From a marine bacterium B5-7 (GTDB lineage Bacteria > Pseudomonadota > Gammaproteobacteria > Arenicellales > CAJQKF01), in contig BQJD01000035.1 in NCBI GenBank assembly GCA_021604525.1, positions 1-39,099 on the forward strand: a DNA stretch of 39,099 nucleotides, written 5' to 3'. Shown piece by piece: positions 208 through 31,522 of the stretch. The position numbers were made by a program, and so were the translations under genes. A model generated the notes under the pieces. That model was not told where the DNA came from and made no database searches. It worked only from the letters and a program-made list of their open reading frames with translations. The stretch's first letter is position 1; the number at the start of each line of letters is the position of its first letter.

Positions 208-930
208 CTAATTTTCACTTTCAATGTCTGACGAGATTTCTTGTTTTTCAATGATTGGAAAACAAAAATCGAGAACCGTGCCAAAGGTCACTAGGAACTG
301 ATCTCGTCTTTCCTTCTGCCAACCCTGGCCTTCAGTTGGAAGGCTTTTCATCAAACCTGCAATTGCACTTGGCATCTGCGAAAAGTGATCTGCGGCCTCA
401 TTTTTGGGTGGCACCTTTTTAGAGCGAGTACGCGTAAAGACGGTTTTCCCATTATTTGACGTATTTTTAGAGGCCTTGAGTTTTTTTCGTTCTGTTTTTA
501 CTTCCTCGCGAAGCCCAGCGGCTTCACAAAGTCCAATAAACAGTGAAACCATTCGATTTTGCTGTCCCATTGGCTTATAGGTTCTGAATGCATCACGTAT
601 CTTAGTGTCATCATCCTCCATCGGATCAACGTAACTAAACACATCTGCGTACGCACTACGCAACCATTCTTGCAATCGTTGTTTGTATTCTTCTTCAGGA
701 GAAAGCCGGATGCCTTCAAAGGTATCGGTTGGATTGCCTTCTTCGTCAATTAAATCCAACACAAGCAAGGCTTGCAAAGTTCGGCTGATAAGGCTGTCAG
801 ATATGCCTGCTCGGCCTAATACTTCTGCATTTATTGGAGATTGCATTCCCCGATGGCGATACCTGTTAATTATATCCAGCATTCCAGATGCCGGAGCATA
901 GGGGGCAGATACTTCGCTGGTGACAGCCAT
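208..930 (-). CDS. DUF5343 family protein
   Basis: The 240-residue product resembles the DUF5343 family, found in prokaryotic accessory regions and of unknown biochemical role. The N-terminal 60 residues (Tyr-Ala-Pro near residue 11, then an alternation of short helices ending in LVLDLIDEEGNPTD) look like a winged-helix fold. They are followed by a helical segment with the typical 'Y..vF' element (AYADVFSYVDP, about 93-103). A basic Lys/Arg/Asn/Ser-rich linker (about 145-175) separates this from a C-terminal helical part (QMPSAIAGLMKSLPTEGQGW). The ATG start at 930 fits the promoter at 961-989. The gene stands alone between hairpins, in DNA more AT-rich than the catabolic genes to the right. 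A nucleic-acid-binding role is an inference from the fold impression only. Confidence 0.75.
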   Translation of the reverse strand: MAVTSEVSAPYAPASGMLDIINRYRHRGMQSPINAEVLGRAGISDSLISRTLQALLVLDLIDEEGNPTDTFEGIRLSPEEEYKQRLQEWLRSAYADVFSYVDPMEDDDTKIRDAFRTYKPMGQQNRMVSLFIGLCEAAGLREEVKTERKKLKASKNTSNNGKTVFTRTRSKKVPPKNEAADHFSQMPSAIAGLMKSLPTEGQGWQKERRDQFLVTFGTVLDFCFPIIEKQEISSDIESEN

Positions 931-1322: not shown

Positions 1323-1886
1323 GTGCAACTGCTACATAATTCCGGAATTAATCTTCTTGTGGCTGACCATGGGTTAATGCCCGGACATAGTAGATTATTC
1401 GCAGGCACGCTACTACCGGAATTTTTTAAGGGCATAACAGTTAACCTATGTATGGATGCAGGATGTCAAATTGCGAAAAACGAATTTTACATTAAAAGCC
1501 TGGCTAACGGATTTAAGTCACCCGTAATCGCAAGCGAAGTCAATGTTCATTATCCGATTTCGAATGATTCCCAACATGAAATAATGAAGGGTATGGTGAA
1601 AAGATATATGGCTAATGGGTTCAATGATGCATATGTAAATGAATTGCATGATAGATTTGGCAGGCACCCCTTCTCCTCGTATATACCCGGCGCCAAGATG
1701 CTCAAGATATTTTTGAAATCTGATGTGTTGATACCACCCGGCAGTAGTGGAAGAGCAGAGTTATGGACTGCCTATCGAGATAGGAACGGAAACTTGAATA
1801 GTTTCCATAATCGCATGGAAGATATTGCGTTCTGGTATAAATTTGTTTTGGCAAACGAATTCAGAAAGTATGTTCCGGACAAATAG
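1323..1886 (+). CDS. Unrecognised 187-residue protein, possible 3' part of the same broken gene
   Basis: The frame begins at GTG 1323, four codons after the TGA that ends the preceding frame and in phase with it. No good ribosome-binding site is visible before the GTG, which favours the view that this is the downstream half of one interrupted gene. The product (LLVADHGLMPGHSRLF, later EVNVHYPISNDS and GSSGRAELWTAYRDRNGN) has ordinary soluble-protein composition, no signal peptide and no membrane segment. I assign it no family. A following 62-codon frame (1904-2092) shows no supporting signal and is not called. Confidence 0.45.
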   Translation: MQLLHNSGINLLVADHGLMPGHSRLFAGTLLPEFFKGITVNLCMDAGCQIAKNEFYIKSLANGFKSPVIASEVNVHYPISNDSQHEIMKGMVKRYMANGFNDAYVNELHDRFGRHPFSSYIPGAKMLKIFLKSDVLIPPGSSGRAELWTAYRDRNGNLNSFHNRMEDIAFWYKFVLANEFRKYVPDK

Positions 1887-2115: not shown

Positions 2116-3408
2116 CTAACCTGCCTGCTGCTCTTCACCTCGTTCCTCAGGAGCCGCGCCGAGTTCTCGCCAATTGGTTTTCTTCTCTACGACTCCCTGA
2201 TACGAAGCGATATGGGAGTAGGGGATACGTGGTTCGTTTGTGCCGATTGCGGGACCGCCGTTGCGGACGATGCGGGCGGCATCGACCATCAGTCGGCGAA
2301 ACTCCACCACGGCAATATCGCTGGCGCCAAGAAGCTCCTGGGTGCGATCGATAATCGAGCCCATGGATGTCCACATGGCGATGTCCTGATTGGGGATGCC
2401 GGGAATGCCAGTGAAGTTACCCTCCCTCATTGATTGTCGATCCTGACCGAAATCGTTTTCGATTGTTCGACGACTGGTAAAGTCGTCATTCAAGTCCTTG
2501 CCTGGAACAGCTCGGTTGAAATCCCTCCATGTGGCTGTCTCCGGACAATTGACTCCACCCCAGGCAATAAAGTGAAACGTCGAATTATGATCATCTTCGG
2601 GGACGATCACGCTGGCGACGTTATACGAGGTATTGGGCGGGATGAGGGCAACAAATGGCGCGATATAAACCGTGACACGAACGTATTCATGAGTGGCCGC
2701 ATTCTTGATCGGACGACGAATCGCCGCATAACGAAAACCAAAATCGGTTAGCTGACTGACCAGACGTGGCGATTTATCCGTCGATGGCCTGAGCCACTGG
2801 GTGTCGTTGGCGCCGGCACTGTCGACGCGTGCAGGCACCATATCACTTGAATGAAGGCTCGATGAATGCGCCGAGTCAATCTGGCCTTCCATGACCTGTG
2901 CCCAGTTACAGGGAACGCGTATCTTGAGAATTGACACAGGCGTTTTGTCGTCCGGTGAAAAAGCGGGACGATTGAATTCCGGCACGCTATCGTCTGGACC
3001 CATGTAGACCCACACGAAACCACCGCATTCGTGCACGGGATAAGATTTGTGTTTAACCTTTTCTTTCAGTTTACTTTCCGGCGGTTCGCTGGACATGTCA
3101 ACACAGTTGCCATCGACATCGAACTTCCAGCCGTGATAGAGGCAACGCAGTCCACTGTCTTCATTCCTGCCGTAAACCAGTGACGCTCGACGATGAGGAC
3201 ATAATTCGTCGAGCGCGCCCAGACGACCTTCACTGTCACGGAATAAAACCAGGTTGTCACCCAGTAATCGCACTCTAAGTGGTTTCCCGTCGGGCTCTGA
3301 CAGTTCCTCGGACAACGCAGCAGGTATCCAGTGGCGACGCATCAACTGACCCATGGGCGCATCGCCGACAACACGGGTCAGCAGGTCATTTTCTTCGGCT
3401 GTCATCAT
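2116..3408 (-). CDS. Rieske non-heme iron oxygenase, phthalate 4,5-dioxygenase-like large subunit
   Basis: The 430-residue protein is a ring-hydroxylating oxygenase of the phthalate dioxygenase type (Pht3-like). Such enzymes add O2 to an aromatic acid to give a cis-dihydrodiol, using electrons from the reductase encoded divergently next door. The Rieske 2Fe-2S ligands are visible as CPH (C70, H72) and CLYHGW (C89, H92). The catalytic iron site is D178-x-x-H181-x4-H186 after NWAQVMEGQ. The C-terminal half has the family signature around DFGQDRQSM, IPNQDIAMWTSMG and IIDRTQELLGASD. Length is normal for this single-component-oxygenase subgroup. The ATG at 3408 and the next codon, also ATG, are both possible. 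Phthalate itself is inferred from the three neighbouring enzymes; related aromatic carboxylates are not excluded. Confidence 0.85.
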   Translation of the reverse strand: MMTAEENDLLTRVVGDAPMGQLMRRHWIPAALSEELSEPDGKPLRVRLLGDNLVLFRDSEGRLGALDELCPHRRASLVYGRNEDSGLRCLYHGWKFDVDGNCVDMSSEPPESKLKEKVKHKSYPVHECGGFVWVYMGPDDSVPEFNRPAFSPDDKTPVSILKIRVPCNWAQVMEGQIDSAHSSSLHSSDMVPARVDSAGANDTQWLRPSTDKSPRLVSQLTDFGFRYAAIRRPIKNAATHEYVRVTVYIAPFVALIPPNTSYNVASVIVPEDDHNSTFHFIAWGGVNCPETATWRDFNRAVPGKDLNDDFTSRRTIENDFGQDRQSMREGNFTGIPGIPNQDIAMWTSMGSIIDRTQELLGASDIAVVEFRRLMVDAARIVRNGGPAIGTNEPRIPYSHIASYQGVVEKKTNWRELGAAPEERGEEQQAG

Positions 3409-3481
3409 GATTCCGTTTCCTCCTCAGGTTATCGACGCCAGACGATCGATCATCTTCGAATTGTGTATCTGTGAAAGTAAA

Positions 3482-3510
3482 ATCTTAGATATCTAAGACT
3501 AAACAATCAA
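3482..3510 (-). promoter_or_regulatory. Promoter of the oxygenase gene
   Basis: On the minus strand TTGATT (3505-3510) and TAAGAT (3482-3487) are separated by 17 bp. The palindrome at 3483-3498 covers the -10 box and part of the spacer, an arrangement suited to repression. Transcription would run left into the oxygenase gene starting at 3408. Confidence 0.55.
3483..3498. promoter_or_regulatory. Operator copy 1 (16-bp perfect palindrome)
   Basis: TCTTAGATATCTAAGA is a perfect palindrome whose 12-bp core TTAGATATCTAA recurs at 3700-3711 in the same divergent intergenic region. Each copy overlaps a predicted promoter. Short AT-rich palindromes of this kind are typical of dimeric winged-helix repressors such as MarR or GntR types. 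No regulator gene is in the window. Confidence 0.65.
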
Positions 3511-3686
3511 GCACTGAATGTCATCGACCGGGTATTTTTTATTTAGAAGGGGGGTGCAGCGGCTGGATAAAGCACATTGCAAGTCGCCAATAGACGTTGC
3601 GACCAAGTGAGGGTGCCATTTTGTTTTCGTTGGAATCCCGATATAAACCATATATAAATTACTGTTGAAGTTATGCGGTTCCTGCC

Positions 3687-3714
3687 TTGACTTTATAACT
3701 TAGATATCTAAACT
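3687..3714 (+). promoter_or_regulatory. Promoter of the reductase-dehydrogenase-decarboxylase genes
   Basis: TTGACT (3687-3692), a 16-bp spacer and TAAACT (3709-3714) precede the rightward catabolic genes. The second operator copy (3700-3711) sits in the spacer and touches the -10 box, mirroring the arrangement on the opposite strand. Confidence 0.55.
3700..3711. promoter_or_regulatory. Operator copy 2 (12-bp perfect palindrome)
   Basis: TTAGATATCTAA is identical to the core of the operator at 3483-3498. The two centres are about 215 bp apart, so one dimeric regulator could control both divergent transcripts, possibly with looping. Confidence 0.65.
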
Positions 3715-3776
3715 GATTTACGGCTCCCGCCAATTTTCTTCACTTCCACACCACCGGAATAATTGTTCCTCGACCT

Positions 3777-4739
3777 ATGTCAGAAAATACTAATCTGGAA
3801 TTTTTCAATCTTGAGTTGATCCGTAAAACTGAAGTCGCGCAAGACACGTGGTTGTTCGAGTTTTCTCGACCGGATCGCGCGTTGCTACCCACATTTGAAG
3901 CGGGATCGCATGTGACAGTGGTGACACCGTCGGGAGCACGGCGCCAGTACTCGCTGTGTGGTGACCAGGTGAAAACAGACACCTACATGATCGCCATAAA
4001 GGCCGAGCGGGAAGGGCGTGGTGCCTCAATCAGCATGGTTGATGACACGTCGGTTGGTGATCGGTTGGATGTATCGACACCCGAAAATACTTTTCCGATG
4101 GTCGATGCCAACGACTACCTTTTTATTGCAGGTGGTATTGGCATAACGCCGATTCTGTCGATGATCAGACAACTGAAGCGCAGTGGACATACAGCTTATC
4201 GGCTGATTTATGTTGCTCGGGATCGCTCTCTGGCAGCCTTTGCCGACGACCTTGAAACTCTGGGCGGCGACCGGGTGATGATCCATTGCGATGAAGGTCA
4301 GGCGGATAATTTTTACGATTTCTGGCCGTTATTCGAAACGCCCGGCAAGTCCCATGTCTATTGTTGTGGTCCGAGACCGCTGATGGAGGAGATAAAGGCG
4401 GTCTCCGGACATTGGTCGCCGGAACGTATGCATTTCGAGGATTTTGCCTCGGACGTGCGCGCCATACGTGACAACGACACTGCATTCACCGTTCGCCATG
4501 CCGATACCGGTGAAGAGATCCAGATACCTGCTGATGCAACTATCCTTGAAACCCTGCGTGACAAGGGTCATGCACTGCCGAGTTCATGTGAGAGCGGTAC
4601 CTGCGGCACATGCCGAACCGAACTTGTTGAAGGCGAGGCAGATCATCGAGATATGGTGCTTGAGGAACATCAGCGAGATAGTTACATCATGATCTGCGTT
4701 TCTCGCGCTTTATCCGACAAGCTCGTACTCAGGTGGTAA
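3777..4739 (+). CDS. Oxygenase reductase, flavin plus C-terminal 2Fe-2S (phthalate dioxygenase reductase family)
   Basis: The 320-residue protein passes electrons from NAD(P)H through flavin and a plant-type 2Fe-2S centre to the oxygenase (Pht2/VanB-like). The flavin-binding RQYS motif lies at 56-59. The nucleotide-binding strand-loop GGIGITP lies at 119-125. The C-terminal ferredoxin domain has cysteines C271-x4-C276-x2-C279 and C307. This domain order (flavin, NAD, ferredoxin) is the class IA arrangement found with phthalate dioxygenase and vanillate demethylase. It is transcribed away from the oxygenase gene, heads a tight run of three genes, and begins at the ATG behind the operator-controlled promoter. 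It is cytoplasmic, with no signal peptide. Confidence 0.9.
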   Translation: MSENTNLEFFNLELIRKTEVAQDTWLFEFSRPDRALLPTFEAGSHVTVVTPSGARRQYSLCGDQVKTDTYMIAIKAEREGRGASISMVDDTSVGDRLDVSTPENTFPMVDANDYLFIAGGIGITPILSMIRQLKRSGHTAYRLIYVARDRSLAAFADDLETLGGDRVMIHCDEGQADNFYDFWPLFETPGKSHVYCCGPRPLMEEIKAVSGHWSPERMHFEDFASDVRAIRDNDTAFTVRHADTGEEIQIPADATILETLRDKGHALPSSCESGTCGTCRTELVEGEADHRDMVLEEHQRDSYIMICVSRALSDKLVLRW

Positions 4740-4746
4740 AACTTAA

Positions 4747-5949
4747 ATGAACGACGACACACGACGGGTCGGCTTGGGAGTCGTGGGCCTTGGTCGGGGC
4801 TTCACCCTGATGTTACCGACACTATTGCGCGATCGTCGATTTCGCCTGGTTGCGGCGATGACGCCGGGTGTAGAGGCGCGAACAGCCTTCGAGCGGGATT
4901 TTGGTGGAAACAGTTACGAGACACTTGAGGCGATGCTCGATAATCCCGACGTCGAAGCGGTATATATCGCCAGCCCGCATCAGTTTCACTGCGAGCAGAC
5001 GATTGCCTGCGCCCGTGCCGGCCGTCACGTACTGGTGGATAAACCCCTGGCGCTTAGCGTTGAAGACGGCCTTGCCATGGTCGCGGCCACCCATGCCGGT
5101 GGGGTACATCTTGTGGTCGGGCCAAGTCACAGTTTCGATGCACCGGCATTGGCTGCACGACGAATGGTCGCCAGCAACCAGTTTGGTGCGGTGCGAATGA
5201 TCCACTCATTCAACTACACGGATTTTTTATATCGACCAAGACGACCGGAAGAACTCGATAGCGAACGTGGTGGCGGGGTGATATTCAGCCAGGCTGTCCA
5301 TCAGGTTGACGTGGCGAGACTGCTGGCCGGCGGGTTGGTCACACGGGTTCGCGGCTTAACCGGAAATTGGGATCCCGACAGGCCTACGGAAGGTGCGTAT
5401 AACGCGCAGCTTGAATTCGCAAACGGCGCCTTCGCCAGCTTGACCTACAGTGGTTATGGCCGATTCGATAGCGATGAGTTCATGGATTGGTACGGAGAAC
5501 CTGGTCACAACAAGAACCCGCAGGACTACGGAAAAGCGCGCCACTTGCTTAAGCAAACAGAGCAACATGGTAGCGAGACCGCGCTAAAACGTACACGTAA
5601 CTACGGCCATGTGGATACGGACCGTTTTACGCAATGTCCCCTGCCGCCTGCCCACGAGCATTTCGGTGTCGTTATCATTAGTTGCGAACGCGCCGACCTT
5701 CGATTGAAGGCCGATGGCGTGATGGTTTTTGAAGATCATGAACGCCGTTTTGAACCGGTTGCGCCTCCTGTCATACCGCGGGTTGAAGTGATGGACGAGC
5801 TATATGATTGCGTTATTCACAACCGTCGTCCCACCCATTCAGGCGCATTCGGGCTGGCCACTCTTGAAGCATCTTTGGCTATATTAGCCTCTGCAAAATC
5901 CGCTGAGACGATTTCCATGAAACACCAGGTTGGCGTTGCCGACACTTGA
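4747..5949 (+). CDS. Gfo/Idh/MocA dehydrogenase, phthalate 4,5-cis-dihydrodiol dehydrogenase-like
   Basis: The 400-residue NAD(P)-dependent oxidoreductase starts seven bases after the reductase gene. The N-terminal Rossmann fold is clear (GVVGLGRG at 11-18), as is the sheet-edge YIASPHQFH typical of the Gfo/Idh family. The usual family EKP motif is DKP here (98-100). The C-terminal part begins with FSQAVHQVDVARLL, where the His and Asp suit a catalytic role. In the phthalate route the equivalent enzyme (Pht4) rearomatises the 4,5-cis-dihydrodiol to 4,5-dihydroxyphthalate. That step is assigned here by family and by position between the reductase and the decarboxylase. Sequence alone would leave other polyol substrates open. 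Confidence 0.8.
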   Translation: MNDDTRRVGLGVVGLGRGFTLMLPTLLRDRRFRLVAAMTPGVEARTAFERDFGGNSYETLEAMLDNPDVEAVYIASPHQFHCEQTIACARAGRHVLVDKPLALSVEDGLAMVAATHAGGVHLVVGPSHSFDAPALAARRMVASNQFGAVRMIHSFNYTDFLYRPRRPEELDSERGGGVIFSQAVHQVDVARLLAGGLVTRVRGLTGNWDPDRPTEGAYNAQLEFANGAFASLTYSGYGRFDSDEFMDWYGEPGHNKNPQDYGKARHLLKQTEQHGSETALKRTRNYGHVDTDRFTQCPLPPAHEHFGVVIISCERADLRLKADGVMVFEDHERRFEPVAPPVIPRVEVMDELYDCVIHNRRPTHSGAFGLATLEASLAILASAKSAETISMKHQVGVADT

Positions 5950-5963
5950 ACCGAGAACCTGCC

Positions 5964-6956
5964 ATGCCCCAGTTGCAATTATCTTTTGCTATCGGTGACT
6001 ACGACCGAAATCGTCCCCTGATTGATCGACGTGTGCCGATAGACGGTGTCGATCCTGTGTTCATGACACTATCTCCGGAGGAGATTTTTTTTCGTGCCTT
6101 CAGACATCAGGCCTTCGATGTCTGTGAGCTTTCTTTTGGCTCTTATGTTGTCAGCGTTGATAAAGATGATTCACATTACATTGCAGTGCCGGCATTCCTG
6201 TCGCGGGCGTTCCGACATACCTCAATACTGATTCGTACAGATCGCGGCATTGAACGGCCAGAAGATCTTAAAGGACGACGCATCGGCATTGCCGAATACC
6301 AGTTGAGCGCCAATGTCTGGGCGCGGGGGATTCTGCAGGATGATTACGGCGTGCAGCCGAGCGACATTCAATGGGTCCGTGGCGGCATGGAAACCCCGGA
6401 GCGTCCAGAGAAGATCAAACTGCAGTTGCCGGATGATATTCAGATCGAGAACGCGGCACCAAGCCGGTCGCTTAATTCATTGCTGGCCGAGGGTGAGATT
6501 GACGGTTTTATCGGACCGCGAACGCTGTCCTGTTTTGATAGCGGTCATCCACACGTTGGCAGGTTGTTTACCAATTCAATTGAAGATGGCTCCGAGTATT
6601 ATCGACGTACCGGCGTCTTCCCGATCATGCATCTTCTGGGTGTACGCAGAAGTCTTGCCGAGCAGCATCCATGGCTGCCCAATGCATTATTGAAGGCGTT
6701 TACCGATTCCAAGAATCTGGCTATTGAGCACTTGAAAGATACCTCTGCCACCAAGGTGACTTTACCGTTTGTGGAAGAACAACTGGCAACTGCTAAAAAA
6801 TTGCTGGGAGACGATTTCTGGTCCTACGGTGTACCCAACAATCGCGCCACCCTGGATGCTTTTCTGGATCAGCATCACCGCCAGGGTTTGTCGTCGCGAC
6901 GTATACTGATCGAGGAACTGTTTCATCCATCGACACTCGAGTCCTACAGCATCTGA
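5964..6956 (+). CDS. 4,5-dihydroxyphthalate decarboxylase-like protein (periplasmic-binding-protein fold)
   Basis: The product of about 330 residues resembles Pht5, which decarboxylates 4,5-dihydroxyphthalate to protocatechuate. Such proteins have the fold of ABC-transporter substrate-binding proteins (SsuA/THI5 type) but lack an export signal. The product fits this: it starts directly with MPQLQLSFAIGDYDR and has no signal peptide. Recognisable family segments are AFDVCELSFGSYV, RPEDLKGRRIGIAEYQ and GEIDGFIGPR. The open frame extends back to a TTG at 5946 that overlaps the dehydrogenase stop. I prefer the ATG at 5964 because homologues start at this point. It is the last gene of the three-gene rightward run. 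No ring-cleavage gene follows, so protocatechuate would be handled elsewhere. Confidence 0.78.
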   Translation: MPQLQLSFAIGDYDRNRPLIDRRVPIDGVDPVFMTLSPEEIFFRAFRHQAFDVCELSFGSYVVSVDKDDSHYIAVPAFLSRAFRHTSILIRTDRGIERPEDLKGRRIGIAEYQLSANVWARGILQDDYGVQPSDIQWVRGGMETPERPEKIKLQLPDDIQIENAAPSRSLNSLLAEGEIDGFIGPRTLSCFDSGHPHVGRLFTNSIEDGSEYYRRTGVFPIMHLLGVRRSLAEQHPWLPNALLKAFTDSKNLAIEHLKDTSATKVTLPFVEEQLATAKKLLGDDFWSYGVPNNRATLDAFLDQHHRQGLSSRRILIEELFHPSTLESYSI

Positions 6957-6999: not shown

Positions 7000-7869
7000 A
7001 TGCGTCTTGGTGACCGACCGATGCATGGTATTGCCATGCTGTTGTCGAGCCTGTTGCTCATGGCGTTTCTGAGCGCGCTGGTTAAGCAGGTTTCTTTGAG
7101 TCGTCCACTCCCCGAAATATTGTTCTTCAGATTTGCGGCATCGCTCATCCCACTGACTCTGATACTTCGACGCTCTGGTGGCCTGACTGTTCTGCGTACC
7201 AGTCAGCCGGCTCAACACTTACTACGTTCGTTTTTTGGGATCTCTGGACTCGGACTATATTTTTATGCCCTTGGTACGATTCCGATTGCTGACGCCACAG
7301 CACTGGGTTTTTCGGCACCGATGTTTATTACCATCTTCTCCATTATATTTCTCGGTGAGCAGGTGGGGCTGACACGATGGATCGCGGTTGTCACAGGATT
7401 TGTCGGAGTGTTCCTCATTGCAAATCCCGGTGTCCATGGCATTAATCTGGGCACAATCGCTGCAGTTGCCTCAGCCGTGTTTGGCGGTTTGGTGTCAGTG
7501 TGGATCAGGCGCTTGAGTCTCAAGGACCCGGTAGTTACCATCGCTATTTTATATAACAGCGCGGGTATGCTGGTTGCCCTGGCGTGGTTGTTGTCAGTTG
7601 GTTGGTCGCTACGAGCCGACCTCGGCTTGGTATTGATGATTGCCATTGGTTTAATTGCCGGTGCGCAGCAGTTCTTGATGACCAGTTCATTTCGTTATGC
7701 TGAAGCGAGTTTTCTGGCGCCATTTGAATATGTGCTACTTGTTTTCTCAGCGGCATTGGGCTGGTTTTTCTTCTCCGAAGTGCCTTCAGCCAATGCAATC
7801 ATCGGTGCATTGATCATCAGTGCCAGTGGTGTTTTCATCGTTCGCCGCGGGAAAAAAGATCGGGCATAA
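7000..7869 (+). CDS. EamA/DMT-family transporter
   Basis: The protein of about 289 residues is almost wholly hydrophobic, with about ten predicted membrane helices in two EamA repeats. The first repeat contains SRPLPEILFFRFAASLIPL and GLYFYALGTIPIADATALGF. The second ends FEYVLLVFSAALGWFFFSE. EamA proteins move small metabolites across the inner membrane. The substrate cannot be read from sequence. The gene lies 43 bases after the decarboxylase gene on the same strand and might serve the aromatic pathway, but that is only a positional inference. The start could be ATG 7000 or ATG 7021. Confidence 0.85.
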   Translation: MRLGDRPMHGIAMLLSSLLLMAFLSALVKQVSLSRPLPEILFFRFAASLIPLTLILRRSGGLTVLRTSQPAQHLLRSFFGISGLGLYFYALGTIPIADATALGFSAPMFITIFSIIFLGEQVGLTRWIAVVTGFVGVFLIANPGVHGINLGTIAAVASAVFGGLVSVWIRRLSLKDPVVTIAILYNSAGMLVALAWLLSVGWSLRADLGLVLMIAIGLIAGAQQFLMTSSFRYAEASFLAPFEYVLLVFSAALGWFFFSEVPSANAIIGALIISASGVFIVRRGKKDRA

Positions 7870-7939: not shown

Positions 7940-8818
7940 ATGTACGACTTTAATGAAACCCTTGATGAGGCGCGTCGGAGAAATGTTAACGACACGTTGC
8001 GTGAAGATATCGGAATGGGGGACTGGACCGCGCAACTGGTGTCGGAGGATATTGTCACACGTTCACGAGTTGTGGTTCGACAGGATGCGGTGTTATGCGG
8101 TGTTGCCTGGTTCGAAGAGTGCTTTACTCGCCTCGATGAAACGGCGCAAATAGACTGGAATGCAGGTGATGGCGATGACCTTGCCTCTGGTGATGTCGTT
8201 TGTGAAATCAATGCCAGTGCACGGGCCACGCTAAGTGCGGAGCGATCGGGGCTTAACTTTTTGCAGATGTTATCGGCAGTTGCTACCGAGGCACGCAAGT
8301 ATGCCCGGGCAATTGAAGGCCTGTCGTCCAATCCACGTGGTTGCTACATGCTAGATACACGCAAGACATTACCTGGTCTCCGTCAGGCACAGAAATATGC
8401 GGTACGCAGCGGCGGTGGAACCAACCACAGGATGGCACTTTGGGACGGTATACTGATCAAGGAGAATCATATTGCTGCAGCCGGTGGTATCGCGGAAGCA
8501 TTGCATGCGGCCCGGCAGTTGAAATCAGGCGTTGATATTCAGATAGAGGTGGAAGATCTGGAACAACTCGAACAGGCATTGGCGGCCGGTGCCGGTTATG
8601 TTCTGCTGGATAATTTCTCCCTCGATACCATGCGTGAAGCGTGCAAGATTACAGATGGACGGGCAGTACTCGAAGTATCCGGTGGCGTTGATCTTGATAG
8701 TGTTCGTGACATCGCCCGCACCGGGGTTGATCGGATATCAAGCGGCAAGCTGACCAAGGACATTGCCGCCATCGATTTTTCCATGCGTGTGATCGAACAG
8801 ATATCATTTGCTCGGTAA
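7940..8818 (+). CDS. nadC: Nicotinate-nucleotide pyrophosphorylase (carboxylating)
   Basis: NadC converts quinolinate and phosphoribosyl pyrophosphate to nicotinate mononucleotide in de novo NAD synthesis. The 292-residue length is typical. The family block DTRKTLPGLR (about 139-148) is followed by KYAVRSGGGTNHR, DGILIKENHI, the acidic EVE strand, VLLDNF and LEVSGGV. Together these line the quinolinate and PRPP site. The N-terminal beta-sandwich part contains EDIGMGDWT, as in orthologues. It ends just before the converging MFS gene. No nadA or nadB is in the window. Confidence 0.95.
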   Translation: MYDFNETLDEARRRNVNDTLREDIGMGDWTAQLVSEDIVTRSRVVVRQDAVLCGVAWFEECFTRLDETAQIDWNAGDGDDLASGDVVCEINASARATLSAERSGLNFLQMLSAVATEARKYARAIEGLSSNPRGCYMLDTRKTLPGLRQAQKYAVRSGGGTNHRMALWDGILIKENHIAAAGGIAEALHAARQLKSGVDIQIEVEDLEQLEQALAAGAGYVLLDNFSLDTMREACKITDGRAVLEVSGGVDLDSVRDIARTGVDRISSGKLTKDIAAIDFSMRVIEQISFAR

Positions 8819-18698: not shown

Positions 18699-20561
18699 AT
18701 GACTTTCCTAAGGCCGGAATGGTTATTCATGCTACCCGGCGTTATCCTTGTTTGGCCCTGGTGGCGTCGTCGTGGTAACGACTCGCCATGGCGGTCGGTT
18801 GTCGATCCATCGTTACTGCCACATCTCCTGGTGGATCAAAACGCCCAACGGGGTGCAATTTGGCCGCTGGTCATGCTGACTGCAGGATATCTTGTTGCAG
18901 TCTTTGCATTGGCTGGCCCTGCGATCGAACGGTTCGAGTCTGCAAGTTTGGAAACAGTCCGCTCACGAATCATTGTGCTTGATTTATCGACCAGCATGAA
19001 TTCGCCCGATGTATCACCGACACGGCTTGAACGTGCCCGCTTCAAGATTCGCGATGTGCTCGATCACGACCCTGATGCATATAACGGTTTGGTGGTTTTT
19101 TCCGGCGATGCATTCACGGTATCGCCGTTGACTCGTGATGTTGCAACCCTTGCAAATCTGCTTGATGCGCTATCGACCGACATCATGCCGGTAACTGGTA
19201 ATCGGGTTGATCGGGCAATTGATATGGCACTGCGTTTGCTGGATCAAGGAGGCTCAATGCGCGGCGAAATCTTGTTGCTCAGTGACGGTGTTTCAGCGAG
19301 ATCAATAGCTGCATTGGAAAACACATCCTATGCCGACAACATCGTAAATGTAATTGCGGTTGGTACGCCAGATGGTGCGCCCATCCCATTGGATGAAGGC
19401 GGTTTTGTCAAGGACGAACAGGACAACATTCTCATTCAAGGACTGGATTTCAACTCCCTTGAAAGTCTTGCGCAAGCGGGTAATGGATTAGCAGTCAAGA
19501 TGACCAATGATGATGCCGACCTTGATGCCTTGAGTGCCTATCGTGCGGCTGACGAAAGTGCCCGGAAAGTTGAACACAATGACACAAGACATCTGACCGA
19601 CATCGGACCCTGGCTGGTACTGCTAATATTACCGATGGCGCTGTTGGCTTTTCGTCGTGGCTGGTTACTGGCATGTATTCTGTGCCTGTGGTTACCCCGA
19701 CCATCGCTTGCATTTGAGTGGACGGATCTGTGGCAGCGTGCCGATCAACAGGCAGCCAACGCGCTTGAAAAGGGTGATTTCGAGACCGCATCCGCACGAA
19801 CGACTCCGTGGCAGGGCGCGGCGTTGTACCGTGCCGGAAAATACGATGATGCCGCCGAGGCGTTTACCAATAATTCCACTGAACCTTCATCAGTTGATCA
19901 CTACAACCGTGGCAATGCGCTGGCACGAAGTGGACATTATCAGCAGGCGCTTCAAGCGTATCAGGCGGCATTGGAACAAAGCCCGGGCTTTGGGGATGCG
20001 CAATTTAATCGCGACCTGGTAGATAAGCTTTTAGCTCAGCAAAACAAGTCTTCGAATAAATCAGATGGCCAGTCAGGTGACGGCAAAGAATCGGCTAATG
20101 GCGAGCAAAATAGCGAAGATGGGATGTCATCCACAAAGGATGGCAGATCTCATGAAAATGATGCAGGCAAGGCATCAGCATCGCGTAACAATCAGGCATC
20201 ATCAAGTGGCAACAATTCACAGACTCCTGATGGTGAGGTTGAATCAGGTGTGGATTCTAAAGGTCACCAATCCGGTACTACGGACGATAAGCAAAGCGGA
20301 CAAACGATGAGTGGCAACAAACCTGAAGCCATGGAGAACGGCACCGATTCTGTAGACAGCACCTCGGTTGCGGACAATAACTCAGTGAATCCGACAACCG
20401 GAGAAGCAAAAGGCGAATCCATTGCGAAAGCCGAAGTCAGTGCCACTGATCAGCAATCAAGCCAGGAACTTCAACAGTGGTTGCGCCAGATTCCCGAAGA
20501 TCCCGAAGGCCTGCTGCGACGAAAATTCCTGTTGCAGTATCGTCAGCGACAAGGTCAATGA
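18699..20561 (+). CDS. BatB/BatC-like VWA and TPR protein
   Basis: The 620-residue protein combines two Bat functions. Membrane segments lie at about 8-22 and 55-75. A VWA domain with metal site D95-L-S97-T-S99 follows, then further membrane helices (about 305-335). After these come TPR repeats (about 380-450, e.g. YNRGNALARSGHYQQAL). A long hydrophilic low-complexity tail follows (about 450-590, rich in Ser, Asn, Asp, Gly and Gln). The last residues, LRRKFLLQYRQRQGQ, match the usual basic end of BatC-type proteins. The stop overlaps the BatD start by ATGA at 20558-20561. Confidence 0.9.
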   Translation: MTFLRPEWLFMLPGVILVWPWWRRRGNDSPWRSVVDPSLLPHLLVDQNAQRGAIWPLVMLTAGYLVAVFALAGPAIERFESASLETVRSRIIVLDLSTSMNSPDVSPTRLERARFKIRDVLDHDPDAYNGLVVFSGDAFTVSPLTRDVATLANLLDALSTDIMPVTGNRVDRAIDMALRLLDQGGSMRGEILLLSDGVSARSIAALENTSYADNIVNVIAVGTPDGAPIPLDEGGFVKDEQDNILIQGLDFNSLESLAQAGNGLAVKMTNDDADLDALSAYRAADESARKVEHNDTRHLTDIGPWLVLLILPMALLAFRRGWLLACILCLWLPRPSLAFEWTDLWQRADQQAANALEKGDFETASARTTPWQGAALYRAGKYDDAAEAFTNNSTEPSSVDHYNRGNALARSGHYQQALQAYQAALEQSPGFGDAQFNRDLVDKLLAQQNKSSNKSDGQSGDGKESANGEQNSEDGMSSTKDGRSHENDAGKASASRNNQASSSGNNSQTPDGEVESGVDSKGHQSGTTDDKQSGQTMSGNKPEAMENGTDSVDSTSVADNNSVNPTTGEAKGESIAKAEVSATDQQSSQELQQWLRQIPEDPEGLLRRKFLLQYRQRQGQ

Positions 20562-29926: not shown

Positions 29927-31522
29927 CTAGAAACCGGCAGCATGACCATCTTTCCGAGGGTCACTGGCCGCGCGGTAGCCTGCCATTGTACGGATAATAG
30001 CCTGACCGCCGCCAAATGTAGTCCAATGGTAGTCATTATCAATCTGGTGGCCTCTTTCGGTCAGAATCGGGGCGATATTGGCTGCGAATCCCGGTTCGAG
30101 ATTAATCTCACCGCTTTCGCTAATGTACCAGCGCGGTGCGTCGAATGCCTCCTGAAGTCCCTGATGCCAGGTTTCCAACCGGCAAATAATCTGCATATGT
30201 CCTTGAGGTTGCATATGTCCACCCATGACCCCGAACGGCCCTATTGGCTCATCGCCACGAGTCAGAAATCCCGGAATGATTGTGTGATACGGTCGTTTTC
30301 CGCCATCAACCCGGTTGGCATGACCGACTTCAAGGGAAAACCCGGCAGCGCGATTCTGCAGACTGATACCGGTGCCGGGGACCACGATTCCGGAACCGAA
30401 GCCGTGAAAATTCGATTGGATCATCGACACCATGGTGCCGCTGACGTCAGCGGCGCACAGATATACCGTGCCATGATCTAAAATCGGTCCAGGGCCTGGA
30501 TTCCCTGACCGTTTCGGGTCAATTTCGGCGGCACGGGCGGCGAGTCGAGCTGGATCGAGCAGGCTGGTCACCGTTTCTCGCATGTTGCGCGGGTCGGCAA
30601 TGAACGTTTTGGCGTCTGCAAAAGCCATTTTCATGGCTTCGATCATCAGGTGAATCGCATCAACAGAGTCCGGTTGATAGCGACCGAGTTCAAGATGATT
30701 GGCAATACCCAGCGCAATCAACGCTGCCAGACCCTGTCCATTAGGCGGGATTTCATGGACATCGAGGTTGCCATAAGACATTGATATCGGATCCACCCAG
30801 AATCCTTCATGGTTACCAAGATCAGTGCGTGTCATCAGCGCATCATGGCGACGCGCATCTTCTTCAATGGCAATCGCCAGTTCGCCTCGATAAAAACTTG
30901 TCCCACGAGTTTTGGCGATGGATTCTAAAGTATCCGCGTGATCGGGGCTCATGAACAGTTCGCCAATTTCCGGTGCGCGGCCGGCGGGCATGAACGTTTG
31001 CCTGAATCCGTCGAGGTGTTGATAGCGTTCTATGGCGCTGCTCCACTGGCGCTGGATAACTGGCGTCACCGCATAACCGCCACGGGCGTAGTTAATAGCT
31101 GGCTTGAAAAGCTCATCAAACGGCAGTTGTCCGAACCGATCTGATAAACGTACCCAGGAATCCACTGCGCCGGGCACGGTCACCGATTCCCAGCCTGTCT
31201 GTGGCATGGTCCTGGCTCCCATGAATCGCTCCGCGGTCCAGCCGGCTGGAGAACACCCCGAGCCATTGAAACCATATAAACGACCGTCCTGATGAACGAT
31301 GGCGAAGGCATCGCTTCCGATGCCGTTACTGGTGGGTTCGACAACCGTCAGGCAGATCGCCGCAGCGAGTGCTGCGTCGACGGCATTGCCACCGGCCTTG
31401 AGCATGTCAATGCCGGCTGTGACTGCCAATGGCTGTGAGGTGGCAACAATGTTTTGAGCAAATACGTCCGATCGCCTGCCGGGGTACTGAAACTGGTCTG
31501 GACGTATATAGTCGATTGCCAT
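29927..31522 (-). CDS. Gamma-glutamyltransferase family protein
   Basis: The 531-residue Ntn-hydrolase-type protein matches the YwrD/oxamate-amidohydrolase branch of the gamma-glutamyltransferase family. Early landmarks are ATSQPLAVTAGIDMLKAGGN and DAALAAAICLTVVEP. The self-cleavage and nucleophile threonine is probably T352 in LDHGTVYLC. It is followed by SNFHGFGSGIVVPGTGI, RPYHTIIPGF and GVMGGHMQPQGHMQ. No signal peptide is present, so it is likely cytoplasmic, unlike classical Ggt. It is divergent from the hydroxyacid dehydrogenase gene. The substrate (glutathione, other gamma-glutamyl or amide compound) cannot be told. Confidence 0.9.
   Translation of the reverse strand: MAIDYIRPDQFQYPGRRSDVFAQNIVATSQPLAVTAGIDMLKAGGNAVDAALAAAICLTVVEPTSNGIGSDAFAIVHQDGRLYGFNGSGCSPAGWTAERFMGARTMPQTGWESVTVPGAVDSWVRLSDRFGQLPFDELFKPAINYARGGYAVTPVIQRQWSSAIERYQHLDGFRQTFMPAGRAPEIGELFMSPDHADTLESIAKTRGTSFYRGELAIAIEEDARRHDALMTRTDLGNHEGFWVDPISMSYGNLDVHEIPPNGQGLAALIALGIANHLELGRYQPDSVDAIHLMIEAMKMAFADAKTFIADPRNMRETVTSLLDPARLAARAAEIDPKRSGNPGPGPILDHGTVYLCAADVSGTMVSMIQSNFHGFGSGIVVPGTGISLQNRAAGFSLEVGHANRVDGGKRPYHTIIPGFLTRGDEPIGPFGVMGGHMQPQGHMQIICRLETWHQGLQEAFDAPRWYISESGEINLEPGFAANIAPILTERGHQIDNDYHWTTFGGGQAIIRTMAGYRAASDPRKDGHAAGF

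Follow-up and report, generated by a model that had tools for sequence, protein, structure and literature searches.

Conserved putative MarR-type operators between the divergent phthalate 4,5-dioxygenase genes of marine bacterium B5-7

Two palindromes of the form TTAG-N4-CTAA lie between divergent phthalate genes in the 39,099-nucleotide stretch of DNA analyzed here (hereafter the window; contig C35). Judging from the sequences compared, these sites, O1 and O2, are probably the operators of a MarR-family regulator encoded on contig C34 that would control phthalate uptake and conversion to protocatechuate and would be released by phthalate or a pathway intermediate. Computation establishes that the sites exist and are conserved, that the pathway is encoded beside them, that a marR gene is linked to them and that operators and promoters overlap.

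O1 (3483-3498) is a 16-bp perfect palindrome, TCTTAGATATCTAAGA, with the core TTAGATATCTAA at 3485-3496, and O2 (3700-3711) is an exact copy of this 12-bp core; both features had been named in the original prediction and are confirmed letter for letter. The two putative operators are spaced 215 bp apart within a 368-bp intergenic stretch (3409-3776), O1 about 75 bp from the start codon of an oxygenase gene and O2 about 65 bp from that of a reductase gene divergent from it. The exact 12-mer was found only at these two sites in the whole assembly (4,410,793 bases, 119 contigs), so the motif is not common genome-wide; its being common at non-promoter sites is what had been named as telling against an operator. 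Assuming independent bases, chance would supply ~0.22 exact copies per genome and 7e-5 per 368-bp intergenic stretch. Allowing one mismatch gave 6 genome places (four extra) against 4 for a reversed-pattern control, and the one-mismatch matches are thus at chance level as a set. With 2 mismatches the window again has 2 matches, a count equalled in 18 of 100 shuffles; it is therefore exact repetition, not loose similarity, that makes the motif stand out. Nor is a 16-bp perfect palindrome rare by itself, since the window has two others of at least 16 bp, both GC-rich (18 bp at 30437-30454 and 16 bp at 19977-19992). Chance does not account for the exact recurrence or, most importantly, for the way the motif is conserved across genomes.

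As judged from sequence, the genes flanking these sites encode the pathway from phthalate to protocatechuate via 4,5-dioxygenation. The phthalate 4,5-dioxygenase-type oxygenase (2116-3408, minus strand) has Rieske and LigXa_C domains; its closest PDB entry is 7fjl (E 7.9e-175; entry title 'Rieske (2Fe-2S) domain protein'), which we take to be the phthalate dioxygenase of Comamonas testosteroni, and its next match is 7fhr, 'Putative Phthalate 4,5-dioxygenase' (E 3.7e-70). The plus strand carries an oxygenase reductase gene (3777-4739; FAD/NAD and 2Fe-2S, PaaE-like by NCBIfam and a conserved neighbour), a Gfo/Idh/MocA dehydrogenase gene (4747-5949) presumed from family and position to encode the phthalate 4,5-dihydrodiol dehydrogenase, and a gene for a 4,5-dihydroxyphthalate decarboxylase (5946-6956). 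Pfam would make this last protein a transporter binding protein (NMT1/Phosphonate-bd), an assignment we rejected because its PDB relative is the 4,5-dihydroxyphthalate decarboxylase 9jp7 (E 5.7e-137). An EamA-family transporter gene (7000-7869, plus strand) is possibly the last of the operon, given its direction and a 43-bp gap. The Rieske oxygenase, the decarboxylase, the reductase and the dihydrodiol dehydrogenase of a phthalate 4,5-dioxygenase (pht/oph) pathway are therefore all present, the last two by family.

Behind this operon and in the same direction we also observed nadC, encoding quinolinate phosphoribosyltransferase (QPRTase; 7940-8818, plus strand), the only match in the genome. 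Phthalate acts as an inhibitor by resembling quinolinate. A nadC gene lies on the oxygenase's contig, some 4 kb away, in the congener G001, QPRTase genes were found in 18 of the best 80 phthalate oxygenase loci described below, and on a Sphingobium plasmid such a gene sits directly behind the oxygenase. The available part of one report describes a QPRTase-type gene as aiding growth on phthalate (PMC6051330). That nadC is a phthalate-specific gene here is unsupported, as it is present in a single copy and, of the 109 genomes that represent the order, 86 contain nadC matches.

Our oxygenase search of genome contigs matched more than 80 loci, of which we compared the best 80; they come from alpha-, beta- and gammaproteobacteria and their oxygenases are 56-72% identical in the best segment. 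Of these 80 loci, 64 carry TTAG-N4-CTAA in the 300 bp that precede the oxygenase gene and 23 carry the exact 12-mer there, compared with 0-2 loci for 11 permuted arrangements of the half-sites. In a scan of 5376 inverted-repeat classes (256 half-sites x 21 spacers) in the same 80 loci, TTAG-N4-CTAA ranks first, ranks 2-5 are nested forms of it, and no unrelated class is seen in more than 12 of the loci. The sites number 81 in the 24.0 kb upstream of the oxygenase versus 35 in the 1139 kb elsewhere in the best 80 loci, a density difference of ~110-fold, and most of those 35 also precede pathway genes. Overall, 106 of the 116 sites fall at the starts of pathway, transport or regulator ORFs (-250 to +400 nt) and 10 do not, a raw tally against mechanically assigned ORF starts. 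Where the reductase or the TTT, MFS or TAXI transporters form separate operons, the palindrome precedes those too. Alignment of the 64 upstream sites extends the dyad to positions left free in the search, with C before and G after the motif, an A/T spacer and A/T-rich flanks.

In 47 of the 64 site-positive loci (best 80), the 300 bp before the oxygenase contain one site only. Between the oxygenase and reductase genes, the congener locus L090 has two exact 12-mers spaced 98 bp apart and the congener locus L091 has one exact 12-mer and one TTAGAAATCTAA at a spacing of 81 bp; in G068, the fourth of the genomes of the order that carry both oxygenase and MarR (below), the oxygenase promoter has only TTAGATATCGAA, with one core mismatch. 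In 16 of the best 80 loci no palindrome lies within 300 bp of the oxygenase. Ten of these carry one at another place in the locus, ahead of a separate operon or of a gene farther upstream in the operon (L052, L064, L066, L072, L081, L082, L084, L086, L087, L088), and 6 of the 80 have it nowhere in the locus (L042, L045, L048, L063, L074, L077), L074 carrying a degenerate form.

Both window sites overlap promoter-like elements, which is consistent with the earlier claim that each palindrome overlaps the -10 or spacer of one of two divergent promoters, the promoters themselves being assigned at the level of consensus. For the oxygenase gene, a putative sigma-70-type promoter at 3482-3510 on the minus strand (consensus match only, 8/12) comprises the -35 TTGATT (3510-3505), a 17-nt spacer and the -10 TAAGAT (3487-3482), a pair that lies below the cut-off of our first promoter scan. 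For the reductase operon, the putative sigma-70-type promoter at 3687-3714 on the plus strand (also by consensus match only, 9/12) comprises the -35 TTGACT (3687-3692), a 16-nt spacer and the -10 TAAACT (3709-3714). The -10 begins inside the palindrome in both cases, O1 for the oxygenase and O2 for the reductase. Among the best 80 loci, a promoter-like pair (at least 8/12) surrounds the operator in 47 of the 64 site-positive loci, compared with 10.9 +/- 2.7 of 64 (max 19, 200 rounds) when the flanks are shuffled, and the -10 starts within -12 to +11 of the operator in 36 of the 64 versus 3.0 +/- 1.6 (max 8) with shuffled flanks. The position of the -10 varies by locus, mostly just upstream of the operator or overlapping its start; in 7 loci it begins 9-10 nt inside the operator, the same as at both window promoters. 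The rarity of the motif and this same overlap in orthologous loci support the original prediction of paired operators of one common regulator at divergent catabolic promoters.

That prediction also placed the regulator away from the cluster, which holds for this assembly but not in general. Two MarR models gave 20 and 18 matches in the genome (E <= 0.01), none of them on the window contig C35. A Pfam scan covering 31 of the 64 ORFs listed for the window gave a sole HTH protein, which looks like the biotin ligase BirA. In both congeners, however, marR sits directly beside the oxygenase gene and convergent to it, with 29 and 47 bp between the ORF ends. The candidate regulator in this genome is a MarR-family protein of 197 aa encoded at C34:37014-37607; its gene appears to share an operon with one of class II aldolase type, and a TAXI-TRAP transporter is divergent from it. 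Ahead of this marR lies a third site, TTAGAAATCTAA (C34:36057), near-identical to O1 and O2. Of the MarR, GntR and TetR families suggested for the regulator, MarR is the fitting one. Relaxing the site to TTAGANNTCTAA gives 4 genomic matches, two of them in the window, one at the marR/TAXI-TRAP divergent region and one on C5; because the reversed pattern gives 3 sites, such matches count for little when a single genome is considered. The site on C5, TTAGATTTCTAA at C5:89741 (L004:1501-1512), precedes by 26 nt an ORF of 391 aa that falls in no Pfam family and has a DctM-type transporter gene as its neighbour; the site is possibly a further target or due to chance. The class II aldolase-type gene preceding marR (L129:8139-8951) has as its best NCBIfam model the 3,4-dihydroxyphthalate decarboxylase PhtC (73.5 bits, cut-off 200), a 3,4-type match that is odd next to a 4,5-pathway.

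The separation of marR from the oxygenase gene here appears to reflect a local break or rearrangement. A DUF5343 gene (208-930, minus strand) and an ORF of no Pfam family (1323-1886, plus strand) occupy the place in the window where the congeners have marR, suggesting an insertion or rearrangement. The DUF5343 protein has a weak match to the candidate defence model PDC-M34A (E 3.7e-9). The end of C34 carries an IS3-type transposase gene (L129:10510-11618) that may have caused the assembly break; as to whether C34 and C35 adjoin across this transposase, comparison of the C35 start with C34 was uninformative, with one 14-base match (E 0.75) and no shared end words.

MarR homologues were found in 63 of the best 80 loci (E 2.7e-71 to 1.9e-14), a count that includes L063, whose match sits in a long ORF. 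None was found in the other 17, of which 8 are stretches under 8 kb, so that marR may be cut off in them, and 9 are longer. The palindrome is present in 60 of the 63 loci with a MarR homologue and in 14 of the 17 without one, hardly an association, and because it is nearly as frequent without MarR these loci alone do not prove the link between the two. No regulator family besides MarR was seen among the ORF clusters spanning at least 10 of the best 80 loci, a judgement made by eye from the cluster sequences, with Pfam scans for part of the clusters; diverse regulators could have escaped the clustering. Across the order, the oxygenase (E <= 1e-120) and the MarR (E <= 1e-25) co-occur in the same 4 of 109 genomes, which represents few independent events since three of the 4 are congeners. 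We found no second homologue of the C34 MarR in this genome at E <= 1e-25, and five other MarR regions of the genome score at best 33.8 bits versus ~305 for the congeners' proteins.

The C34 protein belongs to the MarR family by Pfam (PF01047, 43.7 bits, cut-off 24.6) and no NCBIfam model scores over its cut-off. Structure prediction (pLDDT 93.6) gives it the winged helix domain of MarR proteins, in which residues 91-103 are helical, and Foldseek matches of the model include SlyA, MarR and MftR with DNA, BpsR with 6-hydroxynicotinic acid and HcaR with ligand. We aligned 52 MarR proteins, 49 from the best 80 loci (MarR ORFs of up to 245 aa) and three of the genus, and assigned 41 of them to a main group and the other 11 to a divergent group, the latter defined as E weaker than about 1e-29 plus L076. 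Residues 91-94 (E-P/S-T-T) of the recognition helix are largely retained in both groups, as are R46, R70 and W73, and W66 is retained in all but one protein. Nine of the 11 divergent-group loci have the site before the oxygenase; L042 and L048 lack it.

MarR genes have been described in phthalate clusters before. A MarR-type phtR is found in the phthalate cluster of Sphingobium yanoikuyae SHJ (PMC6051330), a MarR gene in that of Thalassospira (PMC9604089), and an 'Oph-R, MarR family' primer after Han 2008 is listed among primers of a 3,4-dioxygenase set (PMC5031561). As far as the available text of these reports goes, the Sphingobium and Thalassospira clusters resemble the window in that the MarR gene accompanies a 4,5-dioxygenase, a dehydrogenase and a decarboxylase. 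The published PhtR/OphR genes lie beside the dioxygenase genes, whereas marR is on another contig in this genome, and the available text names the gene and gives no operator, whereas here the site is defined by conservation. We found no description of the operator of a phthalate MarR in the accessible text of the open-licence literature, subscription journals being outside its scope, and nothing on oph regulation in the open-licence literature. One cyanobacterial paper contains the exact 12-mer string.

CbaR, of the chlorobenzoate cbaABC genes of Comamonas testosteroni, is MarR-like and accompanies a Rieske oxygenase of the phthalate type. We liken it to the C34 MarR by description only; it is named among repressors in the text available to us (PMC12016517). 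HpaR of the homoprotocatechuate operon is likewise a MarR regulator of an aromatic-acid operon and its model is among the NCBIfam models nearest to the C34 protein, although the score is only 36.1 bits (cut-off 121.2). The site itself is of a known MarR type, since the consensus of SlyA from Salmonella and E. coli, TTAGCAAGCTAA, has the same TTAG-N4-CTAA half-sites and spacing in the portion of the report available (PMC5797941). The SlyA-DNA structure 3q5f has a fold similar to that predicted for the C34 protein. However, the C34 protein is far from SlyA, scoring 22.3 bits with the NCBIfam SlyA equivalog model (cut-off 120), and E. coli SlyA is described there as acting by antagonising H-NS (PMC5797941).

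The leading rival reading is that the sites are operators of a different regulator, another MarR or a member of another family encoded elsewhere, with the linked MarR serving only transport or its own operon. In its favor, 14 of the 17 loci (best 80) whose analyzed stretch shows no MarR homologue still carry a palindrome, and the linked MarRs themselves are not one tight orthologue set because they fall into two groups of unequal similarity. Nonetheless, the shared occurrence of oxygenase and MarR in the 4 genomes, the lack of a second C34 homologue here at the threshold used and the largely retained recognition-helix residues in both groups argue against it, and we regard a different regulator as unlikely. 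Chance palindromes without function are scarcely credible. The two other perfect palindromes in the window and the shuffles that match its 2-mismatch count would be in keeping with chance, but this is outweighed by the 64 of the best 80 loci with the site and its ~110-fold greater density upstream of the oxygenase than in the rest of the loci; the 11 permuted half-sites and the unbiased scan of inverted-repeat classes reject a chance origin of the motif.

The same MarR could also act as an activator, or the two sites could cooperate by DNA looping. Two sites between divergent promoters would suit either, and one MarR protein, BhbR2, has been described as activating an aromatic operon (PMC12016517). 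Against an activator, the operators tend to sit over the -10 or the start site and not upstream of the -35. Looping between O1 and O2 is not supported, as the spacings of 215, 98 and 81 bp share no helical phase, and only one site is present within 300 bp in most of the positive loci. Together we consider activation or looping more improbable still than a different regulator.

MarR regulators bind as dimers to palindromes overlapping promoters, and release by a small aromatic ligand is typical of them, although not universal. For the operator reading that we prefer, we infer that the C34 MarR binds these sites, represses and responds to a ligand. One MarR dimer would occupy each TTAG-N4-CTAA palindrome and cover the -10 of that promoter, O1 acting on the oxygenase promoter and O2 on the reductase-dehydrogenase-decarboxylase operon, and the third site at C34:36057 would serve both the operon that contains marR and the TAXI-TRAP transporter divergent from it. 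With an operator over the -10, occlusion of RNA polymerase would be the natural mechanism, and phthalate or a pathway intermediate would make the repressor let go.

We tentatively suggest, with the balance tipping slightly the other way, that TTAG-N4-CTAA may be a single phthalate-regulon code across alpha-, beta- and gammaproteobacteria, one that accompanied the pathway as gene order changed many times and is read by two clearly different MarR groups, the operator staying fixed as its reader diverged or was exchanged. The two palindromes are very probably bound by a MarR-type regulator of the breakdown of phthalate, a plasticiser acid; as many other bacteria have this motif ahead of the same genes, the switch is well supported but of an ordinary kind. 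Its meaning is that a previously anonymous palindrome can now be assigned, with probability, to a known gene regulating o-phthalate catabolism, which yields a testable and portable operator-regulator pair for o-phthalate, and that orthologous loci can lead to a regulator that the window itself does not encode.
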